In this document: positions 13,033 through 40,495 of the stretch, in pieces
Numbering within the stretch: the first letter of the stretch is position 1
Layout of the letters: every line of letters begins with the position of its first letter
NCBI GenBank assembly: GCA_012519695.1
Contig: JAAYPT010000029.1
Span: 1 to 40,613, forward strand
Reading direction: 5' to 3'
DNA length: 40,613 nt
From: Clostridiales bacterium
GTDB taxonomy: Bacteria > Bacillota > Clostridia > Lachnospirales > Lachnospiraceae
The notes under the pieces: model-generated
What the model saw: the letters and a program-made list of their open reading frames with translations, nothing else
Databases searched by the model: none
Told to the model about the DNA's origin: nothing
Translations under genes and position numbers: made by a program

Positions 13033-13078
13033 AGTGCTGAAATTAGTTGTAAGCGACAATGTTCGCACTCTTTTTTTT
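13033..13078 (+). terminator. possible second terminator in the ppdK-PAP2 intergenic region
   Basis: AGTGC-T-GAA (13033-13041) can pair with TTCGCACT (13062-13069) with one bulged T. The enclosed loop holds TTGT and ACAA, which can also pair. Eight T's follow at 13071-13078. The stem is imperfect, so confidence is moderate. Confidence 0.5.
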
Positions 13079-29611: not shown

Positions 29612-29839
29612 CTAGAAGCATCCACAGCCGTTGTTGTTACCGCATCCGCCACAGCAGAAGAGTAATAAGATAATCCAGATACAGCTGTTGTTTCCGAAGC
29701 AGCTATCACCACAGCCATTGTTACCACATCCACCACAGCAGAAGAGTAATAAGATAATCCAGATACAGCTGTTGTTAAGGCAGCCTCCGTTGTTATTTTC
29801 ACATCCGCATCCACAGTTTGTTGCAGCTAAATCACTCAT
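29612..29839 (-). CDS. cysteine/glycine/asparagine-rich 'chorion-like' protein with internal duplication
   Basis: A 75-residue protein with 16 cysteines. It consists of two 28-residue units, each with NNSCIWIILLLFCCGGCGNN: a hydrophobic stretch flanked by Cys-Gly-Asn segments. Clostridial proteins of this kind are annotated as 'chorion class high-cysteine' proteins; none has an assigned role that I know. I place the start at ATG 29839, seven bases after GGAGGA, not at the in-frame ATG 15 bases upstream. The promoter fits sigma-K, which suggests a cross-linked spore-coat or crust component (inference). The converging terminator lies just past the stop. Confidence 0.85.
   Translation of the reverse strand: MSDLAATNCGCGCENNNGGCLNNSCIWIILLLFCCGGCGNNGCGDSCFGNNSCIWIILLLFCCGGCGNNNGCGCF
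29649..29776. repeat. 84-bp-period tandem duplication inside the cysteine-rich gene
   Basis: Positions 29649-29692 and 29733-29776 are identical over 44 bases, and similarity extends further upstream to 29634 and 29718 with two changes. The 84-base offset is exactly 28 codons, so the reading frame is kept. The near-identity at DNA level points to a recent duplication or ongoing unit exchange. Confidence 0.92.
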
Positions 29840-29870
29840 GTTCAAATCCTCCATAATTTTGATTACAATG

Positions 29871-29919: not shown

Positions 29920-29948
29920 TTGTAAATTATTTCGTAGTCTGATATAAT
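29920..29948 (+). promoter_or_regulatory. sigma-A promoter for the regulator-ATPase operon
   Basis: TTGTAA (29920-29925), 17 bases, then a perfect extended -10, TGATATAAT (29940-29948). The leader is about 60 bases. No terminator interrupts the path to ntpD. Confidence 0.78.
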
Positions 29949-30015: not shown

Positions 30016-31036
30016 ATGGATACGGTAGTAATCATAGATGATAGTAAAAAAAATGATTGAAAACTATATAAGAATGTTAGAAGCCTGTAAGGAAGAAATG
30101 AACTTTAAATACTTTAAATACCCGGAAAAGGCAGTGGAATATATCCGTAAAGAAGGGGCAGCAGTGGTAGTATGTGAGTTAGATATGCCGGTTATGTCGG
30201 GAAAAGAAGTATTTGAAATGATAGATATGATTTCACCGGAAACGGTAAAAATAGCAATGACACAGGTAAAAGATATTAAGGAAACATTGGAGATTGTAAA
30301 TCATAGCCGAATTTTTAAAGTGATTCTGAAACCATTCTTTTTCCCGGAAGACTTATTAGAACCCATTAAGTCGGCAATAAATTATTATAAGCTCTTAGAG
30401 AAAAGGAAAAGTAAGTCGTTACAAACCTTAACGGAAGTTAATGCACCAAGCAGAGCAAATAAACGCCTGGTAGGAGAAGGAGAGAAAAAGAAACAGATTT
30501 ATTATGATATTTCTAAAACCATGAGCGGAATGATAAACGGAAATTTACAATGTGGAAATATAGAACTCTCCCGGGGCGAGAAAGAAGTGATTGCAAAGTT
30601 GATGGATGGATTATTTCAGGAATTCATGCGTTATTATATGTTTGGTGCGCAGAATTATATTTTTCATATCAATTATTTAATGAATCTGTTTCATGCGCCG
30701 GACGAGCATCAGGTATTTCGATTGAAGCGTGAACATAACCAAGAACTACCAGATGAAGTTTTAAAGAAAATAGCATATACTATTTTTATTGTAGGGTATG
30801 TGGCAAAAGAAATATATGGACAATATCAGTTGAAGACAGTAATTGACAAAAAGAACGAGGGATATGTATTAGGATTGTTACTGAAAATACCGGAACAGAA
30901 GTCGGCACAAACAATATTTGGAAAAAGAGTAACAGAAGTGGTAAGACAGGTGACACAGAAAATGATTGACATTTTAGCAAAGAGTAGCTTGCAAGAGGTT
31001 TCGGAGAATCTGATAGCAGAGAAAATCTATTATTAA
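30016..31036 (+). CDS. response-regulator-like protein with Glu at the phospho-acceptor site (one-base frameshift near the 5' end)
   Basis: GGGAGG and ATG at 30016 begin a typical receiver start, MDTVVIIDDSKK, but an A8 run (30046-30053) throws the frame into a stop. Removing one A joins it to the remaining frame and gives 339 residues. The receiver (1 to about 120) has D8-D9, switch T82 and K105, but the phospho-acceptor position is E54 (CELDMPVMSG). The fold resembles receivers of the RpfG type. Residues about 140-339 form a mostly helical domain that I do not recognise. It lies 21 bases before the ATPase genes and shares their promoter, so it may regulate or respond to the ATPase. The frameshift may be a sequence error or a slippage site. 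Confidence 0.8.
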
Positions 31037-31057
31037 AGTGTGAAAAGGGGGTATCTT

Positions 31058-31369
31058 ATGAATGAAATTATAAAAGAGTTATATAATATTGAGGAACGCG
31101 CAGGACAAATTGTAGAGAATACACAGTCGAAAAAGCAGGAATTAGAAAGGCGAAAACAGGAAAAAGAGGAACAAATAGAAAAAGAATTGCAGGGAGAAAT
31201 GGAGGGACGACTGACAATTCTAAAAACTCAAGTGGATGAGGAAGCGGAAGAAAAGATTAAAAAAATAACAGAGAAGACAAGCCAATATACAGAACAATTG
31301 ATGCAAAAATATGAAGAAGAGGGCGACAAAATAGTACAGGCAATTTTTGAACGGATAATAGAGGTGTAG
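31058..31369 (+). CDS. V-type ATP synthase subunit H (peripheral stalk)
   Basis: A 103-residue, almost wholly coiled-coil protein rich in Glu, Lys and Gln. It matches the small stalk subunit (H in archaea, F in Enterococcus) that pairs with subunit E in the peripheral stator. AAAGGGGG precedes ATG 31058; a GTG at 31040 is in frame but upstream of this site. Subunit C follows after one base. Confidence 0.8.
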   Translation: MNEIIKELYNIEERAGQIVENTQSKKQELERRKQEKEEQIEKELQGEMEGRLTILKTQVDEEAEEKIKKITEKTSQYTEQLMQKYEEEGDKIVQAIFERIIEV

Positions 31370-31370
31370 C

Positions 31371-32198
31371 ATGGTAGGAGAATTGTTGCAATATAGCGGT
31401 TTGGTTACGAAGATAAGAGCAATGGCAGGTAGACTTTTGACCCAGGAAGAATATGAGCGTATTTTGGGATTTCAGACGGTTGACGAAACCATTGCTTATT
31501 TAAAAGAAGAAAAAACCTATGGCAAAATCTACAGTGGCCATGATGAAATAAAACACCGCGGACAGGTAGAGGCATTGATTTATAATTCCATACGGATGGA
31601 TTTTGAAAAAATTTGTTGTTTTTGTAATCCGGTGCAGCGTCAGGCAATCAAACTCTATGAACCCCAATTACAATATGAAAATGCAGCACCTGAATTAAAT
31701 CAGGATTATTTTTTTAAGACGTGGAAACAAATCAGCAGATTCCCTAAAAAAGACGCGAAAAAGATTTTAAGAGAAGTATTCGGTACACAGATAGATTGGC
31801 TTAATATTATGTGGGTATATCGGGCAAAACGCTTTTTTAGACAGCAAGATGCTGAGATTATCCCATATATCATACCGGTTTACTATAAGTTAAAAAAGAT
31901 AGAGCTTCAGAATATGATAAGGGCGCAAAGTATAGAAGAGTTTGAAAAAATTGTAGGAAATACAGCATACTTTAAAGGAAAAGATGCATTTTTACAGTTA
32001 CAGGATGAAATTTCTTATCATCAGGTAATGTTGCGAATGTATCGAAGGATTTGTAAGAAATATCCCGCAAGCCTTGCACCTGTTTTTTATTATTTGTATC
32101 AGAAAGAGCAGGAGATTCAGAAACTGACAAGTATATTAGAAGGTATACGATATCAGGTGGCGAGGCAGGATATTAGAACGATTATTATGGGAAAATAA
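31371..32198 (+). CDS. ntpC: V-type ATP synthase subunit C
   Basis: A 275-residue homologue of V-ATPase subunit d/AC39, the socket that joins the central rotor to the membrane ring. The N-terminal YSGLVTKIRAMAGRLLTQEEYERIL and the repeated YxxxxFxxI-type helices are typical, although divergent and shorter than the usual 330 or so residues. Assignment rests on both sequence and operon position. Here C lies before I, whereas in Enterococcus hirae it follows E. Confidence 0.85.
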   Translation: MVGELLQYSGLVTKIRAMAGRLLTQEEYERILGFQTVDETIAYLKEEKTYGKIYSGHDEIKHRGQVEALIYNSIRMDFEKICCFCNPVQRQAIKLYEPQLQYENAAPELNQDYFFKTWKQISRFPKKDAKKILREVFGTQIDWLNIMWVYRAKRFFRQQDAEIIPYIIPVYYKLKKIELQNMIRAQSIEEFEKIVGNTAYFKGKDAFLQLQDEISYHQVMLRMYRRICKKYPASLAPVFYYLYQKEQEIQKLTSILEGIRYQVARQDIRTIIMGK

Positions 32199-32218: not shown

Positions 32219-34123
32219 GTGGTTGAAAAGATGAAGCTGTTGCACATTACCGGTCCAAAAGAAGATATTGACCGGGTTATGCAACAGTATTTGTGCAGAT
32301 ATGAAATCCATTTTGAAAACGCAGTATCAAGTTTGGAAAAGCTAGAAAATATAACTCCTTTTGTAGAAACAAATTTTTATCGTGAGACTTATCAAAAAGG
32401 AGAAAATTTAAAAAAATATCTGGGAGAAATAAAGTCCTATTCCGATAGGACATGCACGATTCAAGAAGCAAATGAGATAATTCAAAGTGCAGATGAAAAA
32501 ATAAAACCGTTCATAGAAGAACAAGAGCGATTAGAAGAAGAAAAACAGAACATAAAGCGGCGAATGACAAAGATAGCACCGTTTATTGGTTTAGACTTTG
32601 AAATCGATAAGTTAAAGGAATTTCAATTTATAGACTATCGTTTTGGCAGGATTACCGTAGAAAATTATCATAAGCTGCAAACATATATTTATAAGAATCC
32701 ATATACGTTGTTTTATGAATGTAATAGCGATGTTGAATATGTATGGGCAGTATATTTTGCGCCGCACATGTACATGAGTGAGCAAGAGGCAGTGTATGCA
32801 TCCTTTCACTTTGAAGAAATACCGATACCGAAAGACCTAGAGGGAACACCGGGAGAGGGTTTTGCCAACGAGGCACAGCAATTAGAGGAAAATAAAATTC
32901 AATATCAAAAAATTCAGCAGGAAATACAAGAAGTATTACAGCAGCAGGAAGAACAGATAAGGATTGCATGTCATACAGTAACTGCTTATTGTGAAAATTT
33001 TGAAATACGAAAATATGCAGCGTGTACCAGAAAAGAAGACGGAGAAGAAAACTATATTTTATATGGTTGGCTCACAAAAGCAGATGCGGAAAAGTTAGAA
33101 CAAGAGATGGAGCAGGATGAAAAGATTCATCTGGTAGAGGAAGAAGCAGATGAAGAATTAAGTACCATGCCACCTACAAAGCTAAAAAATCCTAAGGTAT
33201 TAAAGCCTTTTGAAATGTTTGTGGAAATGTATGGATTGCCGGCATATAACGAAATGGACCCAACAGCGTTTATTGCACTAACGTATACACTGATGTTTGG
33301 AATTATGTTTGGCGATGTGGGACAAGGATTGGCATTAGTGATTGGAGGTTTTCTGTTATATCGTATAAAAGGAGCTCGGTTAGCAGGAATTATATCTGTG
33401 GCAGGACTGTGGTCGATGTTTTTTGGCGTAATGTATGGAAGTGTCTTTGGATTTGAAGAATTAATTCCGGCAGTTTGGATGAAACCCATGGACAATATTA
33501 TGAGTGTTTTGATGTTGGCAATTGGATTTGGAGCTTTATTGATTTTAATTGCAATGGTATTAAATGTAATTAATGCTGTGCGAGCCCGAGAGTATGGTCG
33601 CTTGCTTTTCAATCAAAGTGGGCTCATGGGAATTATTTGTTATGGAACTGTGGCAGTATGTGCGCTTTTAATTATTTCAGGACACGGGCTTCCGGCAACT
33701 ATTATCATAGGATTGGCAGTAGGACTTCCATTGGTTGCTATCTTATTAAAGGAACCGTTGAGCCATTTTATAGAGAAGAAGAAGCCGATTATGCCGGAAG
33801 GAAGTATAGTTATGTTTCTGGTAGAGGCATTGGTAGAAGTATTTGACGTAGTATTGAGTTATGCAACCAATACGATTTCGTTTGTGCGTGTAGGAGCCTT
33901 TGCATTAAGCCATGCAGGAATGATGGGTGTAGTTATGACATTAGCAGGTTTGGAAAAAGGCAATCCCAACTGGATAGTCATTGTGTTGGGAAATATTTTA
34001 GTGGCGGGACTGGAAGGCTTGGTTGTAGGAATTCAGGTATTACGTTTAGAGTATTATGAGATGTTTAGTCGTTTTTATAAGGGAAATGGAAAACCATTTG
34101 TGGCATTTAACAGGAGGAAATGA
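32219..34123 (+). CDS. ntpI: V-type ATP synthase subunit I
   Basis: The membrane stator subunit (subunit a equivalent), 634 residues. The first 330 or so residues are soluble and rich in coiled coil. The rest has seven to eight transmembrane segments. R557 in SFVRVGAFALSHAGM is the essential Arg that faces the rotor carboxylates. The GTG start is chosen because AAGGAGGG ends six bases upstream. It overlaps the ntpK start region. Confidence 0.95.
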   Translation: MVEKMKLLHITGPKEDIDRVMQQYLCRYEIHFENAVSSLEKLENITPFVETNFYRETYQKGENLKKYLGEIKSYSDRTCTIQEANEIIQSADEKIKPFIEEQERLEEEKQNIKRRMTKIAPFIGLDFEIDKLKEFQFIDYRFGRITVENYHKLQTYIYKNPYTLFYECNSDVEYVWAVYFAPHMYMSEQEAVYASFHFEEIPIPKDLEGTPGEGFANEAQQLEENKIQYQKIQQEIQEVLQQQEEQIRIACHTVTAYCENFEIRKYAACTRKEDGEENYILYGWLTKADAEKLEQEMEQDEKIHLVEEEADEELSTMPPTKLKNPKVLKPFEMFVEMYGLPAYNEMDPTAFIALTYTLMFGIMFGDVGQGLALVIGGFLLYRIKGARLAGIISVAGLWSMFFGVMYGSVFGFEELIPAVWMKPMDNIMSVLMLAIGFGALLILIAMVLNVINAVRAREYGRLLFNQSGLMGIICYGTVAVCALLIISGHGLPATIIIGLAVGLPLVAILLKEPLSHFIEKKKPIMPEGSIVMFLVEALVEVFDVVLSYATNTISFVRVGAFALSHAGMMGVVMTLAGLEKGNPNWIVIVLGNILVAGLEGLVVGIQVLRLEYYEMFSRFYKGNGKPFVAFNRRK

Positions 34124-34125
34124 AT

Positions 34126-34545
34126 ATGGTAATGAAGGTTATTATTGTGGCAATTTTATTATGTAGTATGATTATACCATTTGGTGGATTTTTACTTAGT
34201 AAAAAGAAAAAGGGCGGGCTTAAGGCAGCCCTTGCAAGTAATATATTTTTCTTTTTTGGAACGGTGGTAGTAGCGGATATCTTACTATTTAAGGGAGACG
34301 TACATGCCGCAGGCGAAGTGGCGCAGACTGCTACAAGCGGTGAAGGGTGGCGTTATATGGCGGCTGCATTGTCAACAGGACTTTCCTGTATCGGAGCGGG
34401 TATTGCGGTGGCAAGTGCAGCAAGCGCAGCTTTAGGAGCATTAAGTGAAGATTCAGGTATTATGGGTAAGGCTTTGATATTTGTTGCGCTGGCAGAATCC
34501 ATTGCGTTATACGGATTACTGATTTCATTCTCTATTTTAGGCTAG
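34126..34545 (+). CDS. ntpK: V-type ATP synthase subunit K (rotor proteolipid)
   Basis: A 139-residue protein with four membrane helices in two hairpins. The second hairpin has the rotor pattern: glycine-rich LSCIGAGIAVASAASAALG, then ALAESIALYG with the ion-binding E124. The first hairpin carries no such carboxylate. The Gln that Na+-type rings place opposite the Glu is not seen (A in GAG), so proton coupling is more likely, though E124-S125 and Tyr five residues after E124 resemble part of an Na+ site. An ATG at 34120 overlaps the ntpI stop, but AGGAGG is eight bases before ATG 34126, which I prefer. Confidence 0.93.
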   Translation: MVMKVIIVAILLCSMIIPFGGFLLSKKKKGGLKAALASNIFFFFGTVVVADILLFKGDVHAAGEVAQTATSGEGWRYMAAALSTGLSCIGAGIAVASAASAALGALSEDSGIMGKALIFVALAESIALYGLLISFSILG

Positions 34546-34556
34546 GAGGAATCAAT

Positions 34557-34865
34557 ATGAAGATGTATCTGATTAGTGATAATAGGGATACGCAGACAGG
34601 GATGAGACTAGCCGGCGTAGAAGGTGTAGTGGTACATGAACGGGAAGAGTTAGAAAAAGCGTTGGAAAAGGTTTATCAGGATAGTGAAATTGGCATTTTG
34701 CTTTTGACCGAAAAGTTCGGAAGAGATTTCCCGGATTTGGTAAATGAAGCAAAAATGGGACGAAAACTTCCGTTAGTGGTAGAAATACCGGATCGTCATG
34801 GAACGGGACGAAAGGCAGATTTTATTACCGATTATGTCAGTGAAGCTATTGGCTTGAAATTATAG
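34557..34865 (+). CDS. ntpG: V-type ATP synthase subunit F
   Basis: A 102-residue central-stalk subunit with the Rossmann-like ATP-synt_F pattern: LISDNRDTQTGMRLAGVEG at the start, GILLLTEKF in the middle and VVEIPDRHG near the end. In the family it binds subunit D and the rotor. Length is normal. Confidence 0.93.
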   Translation: MKMYLISDNRDTQTGMRLAGVEGVVVHEREELEKALEKVYQDSEIGILLLTEKFGRDFPDLVNEAKMGRKLPLVVEIPDRHGTGRKADFITDYVSEAIGLKL

Positions 34866-34874
34866 GGGGAAAAG

Positions 34875-35441
34875 ATGCAGATAAAAGAAAAATTAAAAGT
34901 GTTTCGGCAATCTACTATTGAGGTAGCAAGGCAAGAAAGTAAGGCGCAATTAGAGGAATATGAGAAACAATACAAAGAAGAGTTAGAATCATTTCGAGAA
35001 AAGAAACAACAAGAGTTAGAGCATACCTTTCAATTGGAAAAGATAAGACTAATAAGAGAAGCAAATCGAAAAGTATCTACAGAAAGTATGAGGCAAAGAC
35101 AGGTTTTAGAGGAATGTCAAAACGAAAAGGAAGAAAAGACATTTAAAATGGTGGAACAAAAACTTCTTGCATTTCAGCAAACAGAAGCATATGAGAACTA
35201 TTTGGTTGCGCAGATAAAAAAAGTCATAGCTTTTGCAAGGCAGGAGGAAGTTGTTATTTACATTAATTCCAACGATAAAGAGAAAAAGCAACAACTGGAA
35301 GAAAGAACAGGAGTGACACTTACTGTAAGCACAGTTGATTTTGGCGGAGGAATCCGTGCAGTTATTCCTGCTAAAAATATTTTGGTGGATGAATCTTTTG
35401 CTACGAAGTTAGAACAGGAAAAGAATTCATATGTGTGTTAG
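34875..35441 (+). CDS. ntpE: V-type ATP synthase subunit E (peripheral stalk)
   Basis: A 188-residue protein. The first 110 residues or so form a long charged coiled coil, and the C-terminal globular part has VDFGGGIRAVIPAKNILVDES, typical of subunit E, which caps the catalytic head. GGGGGA precedes the ATG. Confidence 0.88.
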   Translation: MQIKEKLKVFRQSTIEVARQESKAQLEEYEKQYKEELESFREKKQQELEHTFQLEKIRLIREANRKVSTESMRQRQVLEECQNEKEEKTFKMVEQKLLAFQQTEAYENYLVAQIKKVIAFARQEEVVIYINSNDKEKKQQLEERTGVTLTVSTVDFGGGIRAVIPAKNILVDESFATKLEQEKNSYVC

Positions 35442-35456
35442 CAGGAGGAACTATCT

Positions 35457-37220
35457 ATGAAGATAATAGGAAAAATATACGGAATTAATGGGCCCATTGT
35501 AACCATGAGAGGAAATCTGGGCTTTATGATGTCTGAAATGGTATATGTGGGAGAAAAACGTCTGGTAGGAGAAGTGATTGCCTTAACGAAAGAGGTTACC
35601 ACAGTGCAAGTGTTTGAAGAAACTACCGGACTTAAACCGGGTGAGAACGTAGAAGGGACAGGGAGACCACTTTGTGTTACGTTAGCACCGGGAATTTTGA
35701 ATAATATATTTGATGGGATTGAACGACCACTTCAGCTTATCGGAGAAAAAAATGGTGCTTATATTCCAAGAGGTGTTACCGTAGATTTGTTAGACCGACA
35801 GAAAAAGTGGCAAGCAAAAATACTGGTAAAAATAGGAGATAAAGTAAGTGGCGGAAATATTATTGCCGAGGTTCCAGAAACCACTGCCATTGTCCATAAA
35901 GTCATGGTGCCACCAAAAGTAGAAGGAATTGTCACTAGGGTAGTTGAGGATGGAGCATATACCATAGACGACACTTTAGTTACAATTCAAACAGAAAGTG
36001 GAGAACAACAACTAAACATGACACAACAATGGCCAATCCGAATTCCCCGTCCGATTCAAAAACGATATCCGGCAGACAGACCATTGGTGACAGGTCAGCG
36101 AATCTTAGATACCTTATTCCCAATTGCCAAAGGTGGAACCGCAGCATTGCCGGGAGGATTTGGAACAGGAAAGACAATGACCCAGCATCAGTTAGCAAAG
36201 TGGTGTGATGCAGATATTATTATTTATATAGGATGCGGGGAACGTGGAAATGAAATGACAAATGTGTTAGAGGAGTTTTCGCAATTGATCGATCCGAAAA
36301 ATGGAAGCTTTATGATGGAACGAACGGTGTTGATTGCCAATACCTCCAATATGCCGGTGGCAGCCAGAGAAGCAAGTATCTATACCGGATTAACATTGGC
36401 GGAATATTATCGAGATATGGGATATCATGTGGCAATTATGGCAGATTCTACATCCAGATGGGCAGAGGCATTGCGTGAGCTGTCAGGAAGATTAGAGGAA
36501 ATGCCGGCAGAGGAAGGATTTCCGGCTTATCTTGCGTCACGGCTGTCAGCGTTTTATGAACGTGCAGGATATGTAGAAAACTTAAATGGAAGTGATGGAA
36601 GTGTTACTATTATTGGAGCAGTATCTCCGCAAGGAGGAGATTTTTCGGAACCGGTAACCCAGCACACGAAACGATTTGTACGTTGCTTTTTGGCATTGGA
36701 TAAGTCTCTTGCTTATGCCAGACATTATCCGGCGATTAACTGGCTTACCAGTTACGCAGAGTATCTCAATGACTTGGAACCGTGGTATATTGCAAATGTG
36801 GGAAAAGACTTTATTTCATGTAGAAATGAATTGATGAATATTCTTACCACAGAGAGCCGCTTAAATGAAATCGTGAAGTTAATAGGAAGTGATGTACTTC
36901 CGGATGACCAGAAATTGGTACTGGAAATTGCCAGAGTCATTCGACTGGGATTTTTACAACAGAATGCATTTCATGCGGAAGACACGTTTGTTCCAATGGA
37001 AAAGCAGCTGAAAATGATGGAGGTTATTTTATACCTTAATGAGAAGTGCCAAAGTCTTATCGGAATGGGAATGCCAATGGCAATTTTACGAGAGCAGAAT
37101 ATTTTTGAAAAAATAATTGCAATCAAGTATGAGGTAGCAAATAAGGAGTTAGACAAATTTGAAACCTATAGACAGTTAATAGATGAGTTTTATCAGAAAT
37201 TGATAGAACTGAATGCATAG
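35457..37220 (+). CDS. ntpA: V-type ATP synthase catalytic subunit A
   Basis: A 587-residue catalytic subunit. The Walker A loop is GGFGTGKT at 233-240, with K239. The A-type non-homologous region lies before it (about residues 110-190, including [12 protein letters not shown]). [23 protein letters not shown] and the late [13 protein letters not shown] are diagnostic. Hydrolysis or synthesis of ATP occurs at the A/B interface. AGGAGG precedes the ATG. Confidence 0.98.
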
Positions 37221-37231
37221 GAGAATGGCTG

Positions 37232-38605
37232 ATGGGAATTGAATATTTAGGTTTAAGTGAAATCAATGGACCGCTCATTGTACTAGAAGGGGTACAGGAT
37301 GCTTTTTACGAAGAAATGGTTGAATTTGTGGTAGAAGGAAATGAAATAAAAAAAGGACGAATTGTGGCATTAGAAGAGGATAAAGCTGTGATTCAGGTGT
37401 TTGATACCACAGACAACATGTCTTTGAAAAATACTCATACCCGATTGACAGGCCATCCTATGGAAATCGGACTTTCGGAAGAAATCTTAGGAAGAACCTT
37501 CAATGGAATGGGTGTACCAATTGATGGACTTGGAAAAATAAAGCCGGAAGTGGTGCGTGATGTAAATGGACTTCCAATGAATCCATGTACCAGAGAATAT
37601 CCGAGGAATTATATTCAAACAGGTATATCCGCCATTGATGGTTTAACAACTTTAATTCGTGGGCAGAAATTACCCATATTTTCGGGAAACGGGCTTCCGC
37701 ATGACCAATTGGCGGCACAGATTGTAGAGCAGGCATCCCTTGGGGCTGATTCAGAAGAAGAATTTGGAATTGTATTTGCTGCTATGGGAGTGAAATATGA
37801 CGTTGCAGAGTTCTTTCGCAGACGATTTGAAGAAAGTGGTGCGGCTTCTCATGTAACCATGTTTTTGAATCTCTCCAATGATTCGGTGGTAGAACGATTG
37901 ATTACACCAAAGGTTGCATTAACAGCAGCAGAATATCTTGCTTTTGAAAAAAATATGCATATTCTTGTAATATTAACAGATATGACATCTTATGCAGAAG
38001 CGATGCGAGAAGTCTCTTCTTTGAAAGGCGAAATTCCAAGCCGAAAAGGATATCCGGGATATTTGTACAGTGAGTTGGCAACCTTGTACGAGAGAGCCGG
38101 AATTGTAAAAGGATGTAAGGGAAGTGTTACGCAGATACCGATTTTAACGATGCCAAATGATGATATTACCCATCCGATTCCGGACCTGACCGGATATATT
38201 ACGGAGGGACAGATTGTACTGGAACGCGCATTGCATCAGAAAAATGTGTATCCGCCTATTAATGTGTTACCATCTTTATCACGTTTAATGAAAGATGGAA
38301 TCGGAGAAAAATATACCAGAGAAGACCACCAGGATGTGGCAAACCAGTTATTTTCTTCTTATGCACGAGTAGGGGAAGCACGAGATTTGGCAAGCGTCAT
38401 CGGAGAAGAAGAGTTATCCCCTACGGATAAAAAGTACTTAGAATTTGGGACGGCATTTGAACAGCAATTTGTAGCACAGGGACAGAACGAAAATCGTTCT
38501 ATGGAAGAAACTTTGAGCATTGGATGGCAGCTTTTGCACATTTTACCCAAAGAAGAACTGGATAGAATCGACACCAGGCTGTTGGAGAAATATTGGGAGG
38601 AATAG
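37232..38605 (+). CDS. ntpB: V-type ATP synthase subunit B
   Basis: A 457-residue non-catalytic nucleotide-binding subunit, standard length. The degenerate P-loop region is [33 protein letters not shown] and [21 protein letters not shown] are the family signatures. It forms the hexameric head with subunit A. It starts 11 bases after ntpA. Confidence 0.98.
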
Positions 38606-38608
38606 CAG

Positions 38609-39223
38609 ATGAATCCAAAAGAATTTCCCACCAAAGGTAATCTTATATTGGCAAAAAACTCTCTTGCATTATCCAGACAAGGGTTTGAATTGATGGATAA
38701 AAAACGAAATATTCTCATTCGGGAATTAATGGAGCTAATAGAGGAAGCCTCTGATATTCAAAAGGAAATTGATACAACTTTCACAAGTGCTTATCAGGCA
38801 TTGCAAAAGGCGAATATTCAAATGGGAATTCATGAAGTGGAGGGGATAAGCCAAAAGATTCCGCTGGAAGAATCCATTGTCATTAAAAGGCGCAGTGTCA
38901 TGGGAACAGAAATTCCTAAGGTAGAATATGAACAACAGGAACTAAAACCGCACTATGCCTTTTGGGGAACGAAAATGGCATTGGATGAAGCATGTGAGAA
39001 GTTTCAGAAGGTAAAAGAACTTACCATCCAACTGGCGCAGATAGAAACCTCTGCGTATCGTTTGGCATATAACATTAAGAAAACCCAGAAACGAGCAAAT
39101 GCATTGCAGAATATTACCATACCCCATTATGAAGGGTTAGCAAAAAGTATTCAAGAGTCGTTAGAAGAAAAAGAAAGGGAAGAATTTACCCGTTTAAAAG
39201 TGATAAAAAAGATGAAAGATTAA
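38609..39223 (+). CDS. ntpD: V-type ATP synthase subunit D (central rotor shaft)
   Basis: A 204-residue helical protein. The N-terminal PTKGNLILAKNSLALSRQGFELMDKKRNIL is the family signature, and the C-terminal helix contains KKTQKRANALQNITIP. It links catalysis in A/B to rotation of the ring. It is the last gene of the operon. No clear intrinsic terminator follows before the next promoter. Confidence 0.96.
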   Translation: MNPKEFPTKGNLILAKNSLALSRQGFELMDKKRNILIRELMELIEEASDIQKEIDTTFTSAYQALQKANIQMGIHEVEGISQKIPLEESIVIKRRSVMGTEIPKVEYEQQELKPHYAFWGTKMALDEACEKFQKVKELTIQLAQIETSAYRLAYNIKKTQKRANALQNITIPHYEGLAKSIQESLEEKEREEFTRLKVIKKMKD

Positions 39224-39306: not shown

Positions 39307-39370
39307 TATACATGAAAGAATATACAATGAAAATGTATAAAAAGTGATTGAGCCAAGAGGAGTGTTAGCC

Positions 39371-40495
39371 ATGAGAGAAGTTGTAATGAACAAACATACC
39401 AATCTGTTAGAGTTAGAGGAGCATTTTTATCAATTGGTAGATGTGGACGAGCCAAATGTATTCCGTAATTTGTTTCCATATGAAGAGATACCGAAAATTG
39501 CATTCAATGATCGTATTGTTCCACATCATATGCCGGATAATATTTGGATTACCGATACTACATTCCGTGATGGACAGCAGTCTCGTGCACCATATACCAC
39601 AGAGCAGATTGTAACCATTTATGATTATTTACATCGATTAGGTGGACCAAAGGGATTAATTCGCCAGAGTGAATTTTTCCTTTATAGCAAAAAGGATCGT
39701 GATGCTGTATATAAATGCATGGAACGTGGATATGAATTTCCGGAAGTTACCAGTTGGATTCGTGCAAGTAAACAAGACTTCCAGTTAGTAAAAGAAATTG
39801 GTATGAAAGAAACAGGTATATTGGTAAGCTGTTCTGACTATCATATTTTCTATAAAATGAAGATGACAAGAAGAGAAGCAATGAATCATTATTTAAGTGT
39901 TATTCGTGAATGCTTAGAGACTGGAATCAGCCCAAGATGTCACCTGGAAGATATTACACGTTCTGATATTTATGGATTTGTAATTCCGTTCTGTCTGGAG
40001 CTTATGAAGTTAAGTAAGGAATATCAGATTCCGGTTAAAGTTCGTGCGTGTGATACTATGGGATATGGCGTAAACTTCCCGGGAGCAGTAATTCCAAGAA
40101 GTGTACCGGGAATTATTTACGGACTTATGACACATGCAGGTGTACCTTCTGAAATGATTGAATGGCATGGACATAATGACTTCTATAAGGCAGTTAACAA
40201 CTCCACAACTGCATGGCTGTATGGAGCAAGTGGTGTAAACTGTTCTCTGTTCGGAATCGGAGAACGTACCGGAAATACTCCACTTGAAGCAATGGTATTT
40301 GAATATGCACAGTTAAAAGGTACCTTAGACGGTATGGAAACGACTGTTATTACAGAGTTAGCAGAATACTTTGAAAAAGAACTGGGATATCATATGCCGG
40401 AAAGAACACCATTCTGCGGAAAGAACTTCAACGTAACAAGAGCCGGAATTCATGCAGACGGACTTTTGAAAAATGAAGAAATCTACAATACTTGA
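39371..40495 (+). CDS. HMGL-family synthase (2-isopropylmalate/homocitrate/Re-citrate synthase-like), 3'-truncated
   Basis: A 374-residue TIM-barrel Claisen-condensation enzyme. The family motif is DTTFRDGQQ at 62-70 and the metal-binding HGHND at 266-270, so the catalytic barrel is complete. Close relatives, often annotated as 2-isopropylmalate synthase but in some clostridia acting as Re-citrate synthase, run about 70 residues further as I remember them. Here the frame stops abruptly at NEEIYNT, and no other frame continues the expected sequence. AGAGGAG eight bases before ATG 39371 sets the start; in-frame codons upstream lack this. The acyl-CoA acceptor cannot be decided from sequence alone. 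Confidence 0.85.
   Translation: MREVVMNKHTNLLELEEHFYQLVDVDEPNVFRNLFPYEEIPKIAFNDRIVPHHMPDNIWITDTTFRDGQQSRAPYTTEQIVTIYDYLHRLGGPKGLIRQSEFFLYSKKDRDAVYKCMERGYEFPEVTSWIRASKQDFQLVKEIGMKETGILVSCSDYHIFYKMKMTRREAMNHYLSVIRECLETGISPRCHLEDITRSDIYGFVIPFCLELMKLSKEYQIPVKVRACDTMGYGVNFPGAVIPRSVPGIIYGLMTHAGVPSEMIEWHGHNDFYKAVNNSTTAWLYGASGVNCSLFGIGERTGNTPLEAMVFEYAQLKGTLDGMETTVITELAEYFEKELGYHMPERTPFCGKNFNVTRAGIHADGLLKNEEIYNT

Follow-up and report, generated by a model that had tools for sequence, protein, structure and literature searches.

What does a receiver-like signalling protein do at the head of a proton-pump operon? In the 40,613-nucleotide stretch of Lachnospiraceae DNA analysed here (the window), such a gene lies directly before nine genes for an A/V-type ATPase, and it might be a dedicated partner of the pump, a neighbour with a role of its own, or a relic. 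The evidence from the window and its relatives points to a two-component-like protein, apparently dead at both ends, that would serve as a phosphorylation-independent scaffold and is ATPase-linked in one genus. We regard this account as about equally likely to be right or wrong.

The gene and its reading frame

A homologue search over 61 genomes returned matches at 1e-5 in 29, and the 27 full-length ones form alignment A1. Twenty-six rows come from the window's genus, g1 (genomes G000-G028; G000 is the window row), and one, G029, from another genus. A1 leaves out G016 and G048, whose matches are weak ones to other receivers.

The earlier note on this DNA took positions 30016-31036 as a single gene, a reading that does not survive: the 1021 bases are no whole number of codons, and the frame of the ATG at 30016, preceded by an RBS-like GGGAGG (read by eye), ends after 14 codons, MDTVVIIDDSKKND, at a stop that rules out an intact single frame from this start. 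The open frame begins at 30038 instead. The two frames meet at an A8 run that holds an extra base, so the earlier reading crossed a frameshift, and the residues it numbered D8-D9 lie in a different frame from E54, T82 and K105. The pieces of the gene as present are as follows.

30016..30060, + strand: 5' fragment of the gene, MDTVVIIDDSKKND and stop, equivalent to the in-frame N-terminus of relatives
30038..31036, + strand: open frame of the pseudo-receiver gene as present (ORF list), 332 aa, in-frame receiver beta-1 missing
30046..30053, + strand: A8 run, longer by one base than in five relatives, a frameshift (DNA alignment)

The DNA alignment compares the window with G026, G006, G021, G024 and G010. 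The extra A8 base that breaks the window gene may be a genuine lesion, a slip that can revert or a mistake of assembly. A frameshift programmed throughout the family was considered and rejected, since all 26 relatives whose N-terminus was read keep it in frame and the five aligned relatives lack the extra base. Two more homopolymers as long as A8 occur in the window, at 13071 and 16578; inspection of the ORF list revealed no other broken genes there.

A pseudo-receiver with a fixed glutamate

The protein matches the receiver family PF00072 at 37.1 bits against a cut-off of 30.2. All 27 rows of A1 match it at E up to 1, with the G010 row, at 27 bits, below the cut-off. One feature remains of the domain in the open frame.

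30038..30376, + strand: remaining pseudo-receiver domain, acceptor Glu at 30176-30178 (PF00072, alignment A1)

Glu replaces the Asp acceptor not only in the window, as the earlier note had observed, but in every row of A1 (27/27). Lys, Pro at D+4 and Gly at D+8 are equally invariant (27/27 each), and together with the Glu they are consistent with a kept receiver fold. The usual receiver switch appears not to be kept: DD2 is acidic in 2/26 rows (the window row is without the in-frame stretch), T+1 is Gln in 24/27, and K-3 is aromatic in 0/27. DD1 is acidic in 26/26. The receiver Thr is present in 22/27 rows. Of the residues of Y-T coupling, Thr or Ser stands in 24/27 rows and the aromatic K-3 in none. 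Of the receiver residues named for the window, T82 and K105 stand at their places, whereas the acidic pair is no family feature; the window's 5' fragment has Asp at DD2.

The combination of Asp acceptor and acidic pair that marks a phosphorylatable receiver is absent from A1, and the domain matches a receiver while lacking key catalytic residues, which is how PMC12632262 defines computed pseudo-receivers. In true receivers, according to the same source, Ala or Gly predominates at T+1 and Tyr or Phe at K-3; DD2 is non-acidic in about 80% of pseudo-receivers. Glu at the acceptor is not rare in itself: PMC12548384, citing an earlier survey, puts aspartate-less receivers at about 4%, with 26% of the substitutions to Glu. 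The suggestion that this Glu mimics the phosphate and holds the protein constitutively on is possible but, because the switch residues (DD2, T+1, K-3) have changed too, not favoured over a fixed contact face.

The C-terminal half: a predicted kinase-like core

The roughly 200 residues behind the receiver had been described as an unrecognised helical domain, for which profile searches and structure prediction were proposed. The two approaches differ in outcome. Profiles give little, as Pfam finds nothing steady in the C-terminal region of the 27 A1 members, and the nearest solved structures by sequence (15 sequences at 1e-3, including 3kcn, 2rjn and HupR) match the receiver end and linker. The models are kinase-core-like. 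AlphaFold2 was run on the relative L038 with a seven-row alignment, A2, composed of the window sequence and those of related loci, in which two rows are nearly identical. The full-length model has a mean pLDDT of 63 (35-54 over residues 1-110 and 75-88 over residues 211-290), and the C-terminal part modelled alone reaches a pLDDT of 76.5 and a pTM of 0.67. The C-terminal model runs from a long helix through two further helices into strand-helix-strand-strand-helix-strand-strand. A purely helical output domain is discarded in view of this alpha/beta domain in the models. Mapped through A1 onto the window, the predicted parts are these.

30347..30556, + strand: predicted long helix/coiled coil, its end resembling the first DHp hairpin helix of a histidine kinase (AF2 models of the relative)
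30572..30691, + strand: predicted second DHp-like helices (AF2 models of the relative)
30710..31033, + strand: predicted degenerate GHKL (ATPase-like) domain, no N-box/DxGxG pattern (AF2, Foldseek and pattern scan)

In Foldseek searches of the PDB at 1e-3, two-component kinase-type structures are the best 50 of 85 matches for the full-length model and the best 50 of 98 for the C-terminal model, with best E-values of 4.7e-6 and 2.2e-5, respectively. Among the matches listed are the histidine-kinase cores HK853, DesK, AgrC, RetS, DivL and ZraS, together with a few phytochromes and bacterial phosphotransferases (one titled ChpT), and the LvrB hybrid response regulator tops the matches of the full-length model. 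The ATP-binding domain of DosS aligns with a TM-score of 0.63 by target length; over the whole core, TM-scores lie mostly at 0.2-0.45 and rmsd is large. These matches suggest a histidine-kinase core fold for the C-terminal 200 residues or so, with a DHp and GHKL arrangement seen in the predicted models and Foldseek and not in sequence profiles.

The marks of an active histidine kinase (phospho-His, N-box, DxGxG) are absent from A1. N-box or DxGxG patterns occur in 0/27 rows and GxGxG in 1/27. His fills at most 7/27 rows in any column of the first hairpin helix; in the second hairpin part, it reaches 9/27 at one place. Since the Foldseek matches are kinase-type and the motifs are missing, the most fitting interpretation is a kinase core whose chemistry is gone, as predicted from shallow alignments. 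A Spo0B-like interpretation of the hairpin drew no support from searches and was dropped. In G018, the protein ends in a tandem repeat (L025 1357-2490, - strand).

The ATPase operon and its link to the regulator gene

Nine co-directional A/V-type ATPase genes follow the regulator gene. C, I, K, F, A, B and D score over their Pfam cut-offs; H/G is a weak match below the cut-off and E has no match, so both are named by position and conservation in relatives.

29612..29854, - strand: divergent Cys-rich repeat peptide, 80 aa, a neighbour conserved in relatives (ORF; tblastn in relatives)
29920..29948, + strand: promoter-like TTGTAA-17-TATAAT with extended TG, top score of a consensus scan; a consensus match, no proof of function
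31040..31369, + strand: V-ATPase H/G-like stalk subunit, likely start 31058 (PF03179 below cut-off; conserved in relatives)
31371..32198, + strand: V-ATPase C subunit, short, 275 aa (PF01992)
32219..34123, + strand: V-ATPase I subunit (PF01496)
34120..34545, + strand: V-ATPase K (c-ring) subunit (PF00137)
34557..34865, + strand: V-ATPase F subunit (PF01990)
34875..35441, + strand: E-like stalk subunit by position, no Pfam match over cut-off (conserved in relatives)
35457..37220, + strand: V-ATPase A subunit (PF00006, PF16886)
37232..38605, + strand: V-ATPase B subunit (PF00006, PF22919)
38609..39223, + strand: V-ATPase D subunit (PF01813)
39344..40495, + strand: HMGL-like/isopropylmalate-synthase-family gene, before GntR and icd in some relatives (Pfam, relatives' gene order)

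The regulator gene does stand first ahead of the nine ATPase genes, with 21 bases between its stop and the likely H/G start in the window, and the arrangement recurs across the genus. ATPase genes follow it in 25/27 A1 rows, with the C subunit in all 25, which amounts to 25/26 genus members in which the gene was found. In two loci (L020, L023), H/G falls below the BLAST threshold, but its start is visible. In 19/25 loci, the end of the regulator gene and the beginning of H/G share 4 or 8 bases; gaps of 17 to 43 bases separate them in four, and two are unscored by the pattern. The overlaps suggest translational coupling. Six loci from a related-locus search are ATPase-linked too, but they correspond to genomes already counted. 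For the promoter that the earlier note had the regulator and ATPase genes share, the consensus match at 29920-29948 is a candidate. The regulator gene was not found in 3/29 g1 genomes: the contig of G007 ends about 210 bases past the C-subunit match, and G009 and G016 are fragmented bins, 63% and 82% complete, in which ATPase B and D are present. A plasmid search gave no plasmid match. In the titles and abstract openings listed by searches of the V-ATPase operon literature, no receiver protein was seen described as a V-ATPase partner.

The open frames of the C subunit are 275-320 aa in the genus versus about 340-375 aa in most other family genomes listed, and PF01992 matches the window C subunit in two pieces, with the middle missing. 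In G016, an extra 337-aa gene lies between ATPase B and D (L144 1607-2620).

The regulator gene without the ATPase

Two members of A1 carry the protein at loci without the pump. The gene order is protein-GntR-icd in G010 (96% complete) and protein-icd in G029 (74% complete). In G010, the ATPase operon is missing between the regulator gene and GntR (L042 5638-8965), and PF01992 has no match in the genome. No V-type B subunit was found in G010 or G029, nor in G292 and G312, which carry a distant relative of the protein; the best matches in these four are 29-30% identical, compared with 93% in G026 and 100% in G000.

Trees of leuS and rpoB over 26 genomes place G010 within the genus. The nucleotide tree groups it with the ATPase-bearing G001 and G018 (99.7/99; G010 with G001, 100/100), and the protein tree recovers the same three at 96.9/97 with a different inner order; a tree of leuS only leaves G010 unresolved. 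Since G010 is nested among ATPase-bearing members, loss of the operon with retention of an open regulator gene is its most likely history. Gain of the ATPase after G010 branched off was rejected on the same placement.

A survey of 348 family genomes, two of them from g1, gives the wider view. The A1 profile matches 7/348 at 1e-12, and the C-terminal profile matches 6/348 at 1e-3, with G000, G021, G029, G292 and G312 sure and G295 marginal. All five sure carriers are rows of the C-terminal profile, so the survey found no new carrier. The ATPase C subunit is present in 132/348, and only G000 and G021 of the five sure carriers are among these. Beside the ATPase regions of other genera, a regulator relative was found in 0/5; a sixth region (G072) begins at a contig edge. 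A dedicated subunit or accessory protein would occur with the ATPase and never without it, whereas G010, G029, G292 and G312 have the protein or its distant relative and no V-type B. ATPase partnering as the core function of the family was rejected on these counts, and the regulator protein is probably not an ATPase part, because it is intact in relatives, some of them without a V-type ATPase. The idea of an ATPase partner fails as a general rule and may still hold within the genus.

Several arrangements suggest an older state. In G292, the order is leuS ... relative ... synthase-icd, and the relative keeps the acidic pair, Asp acceptor and Lys (read by eye); in G312, the relative directly follows leuS and has Arg at the acceptor (also by eye). 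Consequently, the leuS-icd neighbourhood looks older than the ATPase link. As G029 and G010 have Glu as well, the Glu is not tied to the ATPase. Receiver-end relatives with Asp occur in G134 and G162 and were not seen in a leuS-icd neighbourhood; G162 has an ATPase C subunit on a different contig. The earlier note had proposed to look at conservation across the Lachnospiraceae and had named Asp-bearing homologues away from the ATPase, or an unrelated C-terminal output domain, as evidence against its idea. The Glu holds in all of A1 and the linkage in 25/26 genus members, and the linkage is absent from the five other-genus operons. Part of that counter-evidence exists: the G292 relative has Asp and no ATPase link, and the predicted signalling fold is unrelated to the ATPase.

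What the protein might do

In the scaffold account, an N-terminal pseudo-receiver with a fixed Glu would lead through a long coiled coil into a DHp-like hairpin and a GHKL-like domain, a fold taken from seven-sequence models in which the receiver part of the full model has a pLDDT of 35-54. The protein would dimerise through the coiled coil and hairpin and act through its contacts with other proteins and its abundance rather than through phosphotransfer. By analogy with the cores of DivL, RetS or ChpT, the dead core would probably serve as a docking site for a response regulator or kinase, and the pseudo-receiver might provide a fixed docking face. In a few genera of the host family, the gene sits on the chromosome within the leuS-icd stretch; in one genus, the V-ATPase operon lies behind it and is probably co-expressed. 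Within the genus, the shared direction and mostly overlapping junction with H/G speak for some connection to the ATPase. A conserved operon neighbourhood within one genus is weak evidence for a partner, because in G010 the regulator gene outlived the ATPase operon behind it.

This last point bears on a rival account, a dedicated V-ATPase regulator in which the fixed receiver and the dead core would attach to stalk subunits or the operon mRNA and set assembly, activity or amount. The position before the ATPase in nearly every genus member, the short overlaps with H/G and the N-terminus kept in frame in all 26 relatives read favour it, but the gene's retention after ATPase loss, the three further carriers without V-type B and the many C-subunit genomes without the protein make it unlikely, and common descent would also produce linkage confined to one genus. 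Where the ATPase is missing, the genes behind the regulator are an HMGL-family synthase, GntR and icd, which could tie it to citrate/2-oxoglutarate metabolism instead. G010, G029 and G292 have such orders, and several genus members have some or all of these genes behind the ATPase. This link is quite improbable in our view, as a sortase and two large genes intervene in G292, a different gene is next in G312, G031 shows synthase-GntR-icd and, from leuS to icd, no relative of the protein, and the family is known at this locus from only four genera. A bolder version of the ATPase link, in which one genus captured a two-component protein that is pseudo throughout and made it the first gene product and controller of a V-type ATPase operon, coupled to it in translation, so that a non-phosphorylating scaffold would set pump synthesis or assembly and A8 slippage could switch it in this genome, strikes us as a long shot.

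Two further possibilities concern whether the protein works as proposed, or at all. A functional phosphotransferase of the ChpT/Spo0B type, using an unrecognised residue, would fit the phosphotransferases among the Foldseek matches and an FH pair conserved after the hairpin (H in 24/27), but that His sits after the second helices, the acceptor Asp is absent and no hairpin column approaches a shared His, which leaves this explanation very improbable. Decay of the window gene, with the frameshift as a fixed lesion and no function left, is doubtful but deserves more weight. Apart from the single-base break in the A8 run, it draws on dN/dS (NG86), which is 0.144 for G000-G026 and 0.105 for G000-G006 versus 0.09 for G026-G006; these differences are small, and dS, at 1.4-2.3, is near saturation. 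The other 332 codons remain open, and a homopolymer miscount would give the same picture. The C subunit has dN/dS values of 0.059-0.083 for the same three pairs. The sole pair with unsaturated dS, G024-G028, gives 0.056 for the regulator at a dS of 0.48, and for G010 the measurement is poor (0.26 against G018; against G001, dS is saturated).

Comparison with known systems

DivL and RetS are atypical histidine kinases in which the kinase-core fold serves protein contact, and both carry sensor parts; ChpT and Spo0B combine a hairpin with a degenerate GHKL domain and have a phosphorylated His. DivL and RetS (PDB 4q20, 6dk8) are among the Foldseek matches of the models, but a pseudo-receiver occupies the input side of the present protein, and no ATP motifs were found in it. 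ChpT-type structures (PDB 4fmt, titled ChpT; 4fpp, titled bacterial phosphotransferase) differ in that the present family has no conserved phospho-His. The LvrB hybrid response regulator of Leptospira (PDB 8vc9) likewise unites a receiver and kinase-type parts in one protein; its structure title names the phosphorylated receiver form, whereas the acceptor Asp is missing here. REC-HD response regulators (PDB 2rjn, 3hv2; NCBIfam NF053512) are, with 3kcn and HupR, among the nearest receivers by sequence, but no HD domain was matched in this protein.

The receiver half has closer parallels. CmrT of Clostridioides difficile has Glu for Asp in a receiver-like domain, according to PMC12548384, and a non-acidic DD2 is common in pseudo-receivers generally according to PMC12632262, both as here. 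The former source counts CmrT among the OmpR-family regulators and infers constitutive activity for it; in the present protein, the output would be a predicted dead kinase core, K-3 is changed in all 27 rows and T+1 in nearly all. Against the literature covered here, what seems new is that both halves appear dead in one chain. A group with Glu in 27/27 rows and a distant relative in another genus (G292) that keeps Asp and the acidic pair form a natural series from live-looking to dead, and the ATPase-linked members and the ATPase-free G010 allow tests of what a non-phosphorylating signalling protein does.

Flanking genes

The genus locus, with pieces missing in some members, runs leuS, divergent Cys-rich peptide, regulator, H-C-I-K-F-E-A-B-D and then further genes: a MoxR-type AAA/DUF58/transglutaminase set, the HMGL-family synthase, GntR, icd and a gene that we take to encode an ABC-F protein. 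Pfam names of these neighbours come from one genome each. The Cys-rich repeat peptide at 29612-29854 has no NCBIfam or Pfam match. Its gene directly borders the ATPase, divergently, in G103, the nearest genome outside the genus by C subunit, and it also lies between leuS and icd in G031. The MoxR-type set follows D in G006 (L088 2794-7215; Pfam), with one base common to D and the AAA gene, and as read by eye also in G021, G024, G013 and G016 (L085, L086, L087 and L144). No such set was seen downstream of D in the window or in G026.
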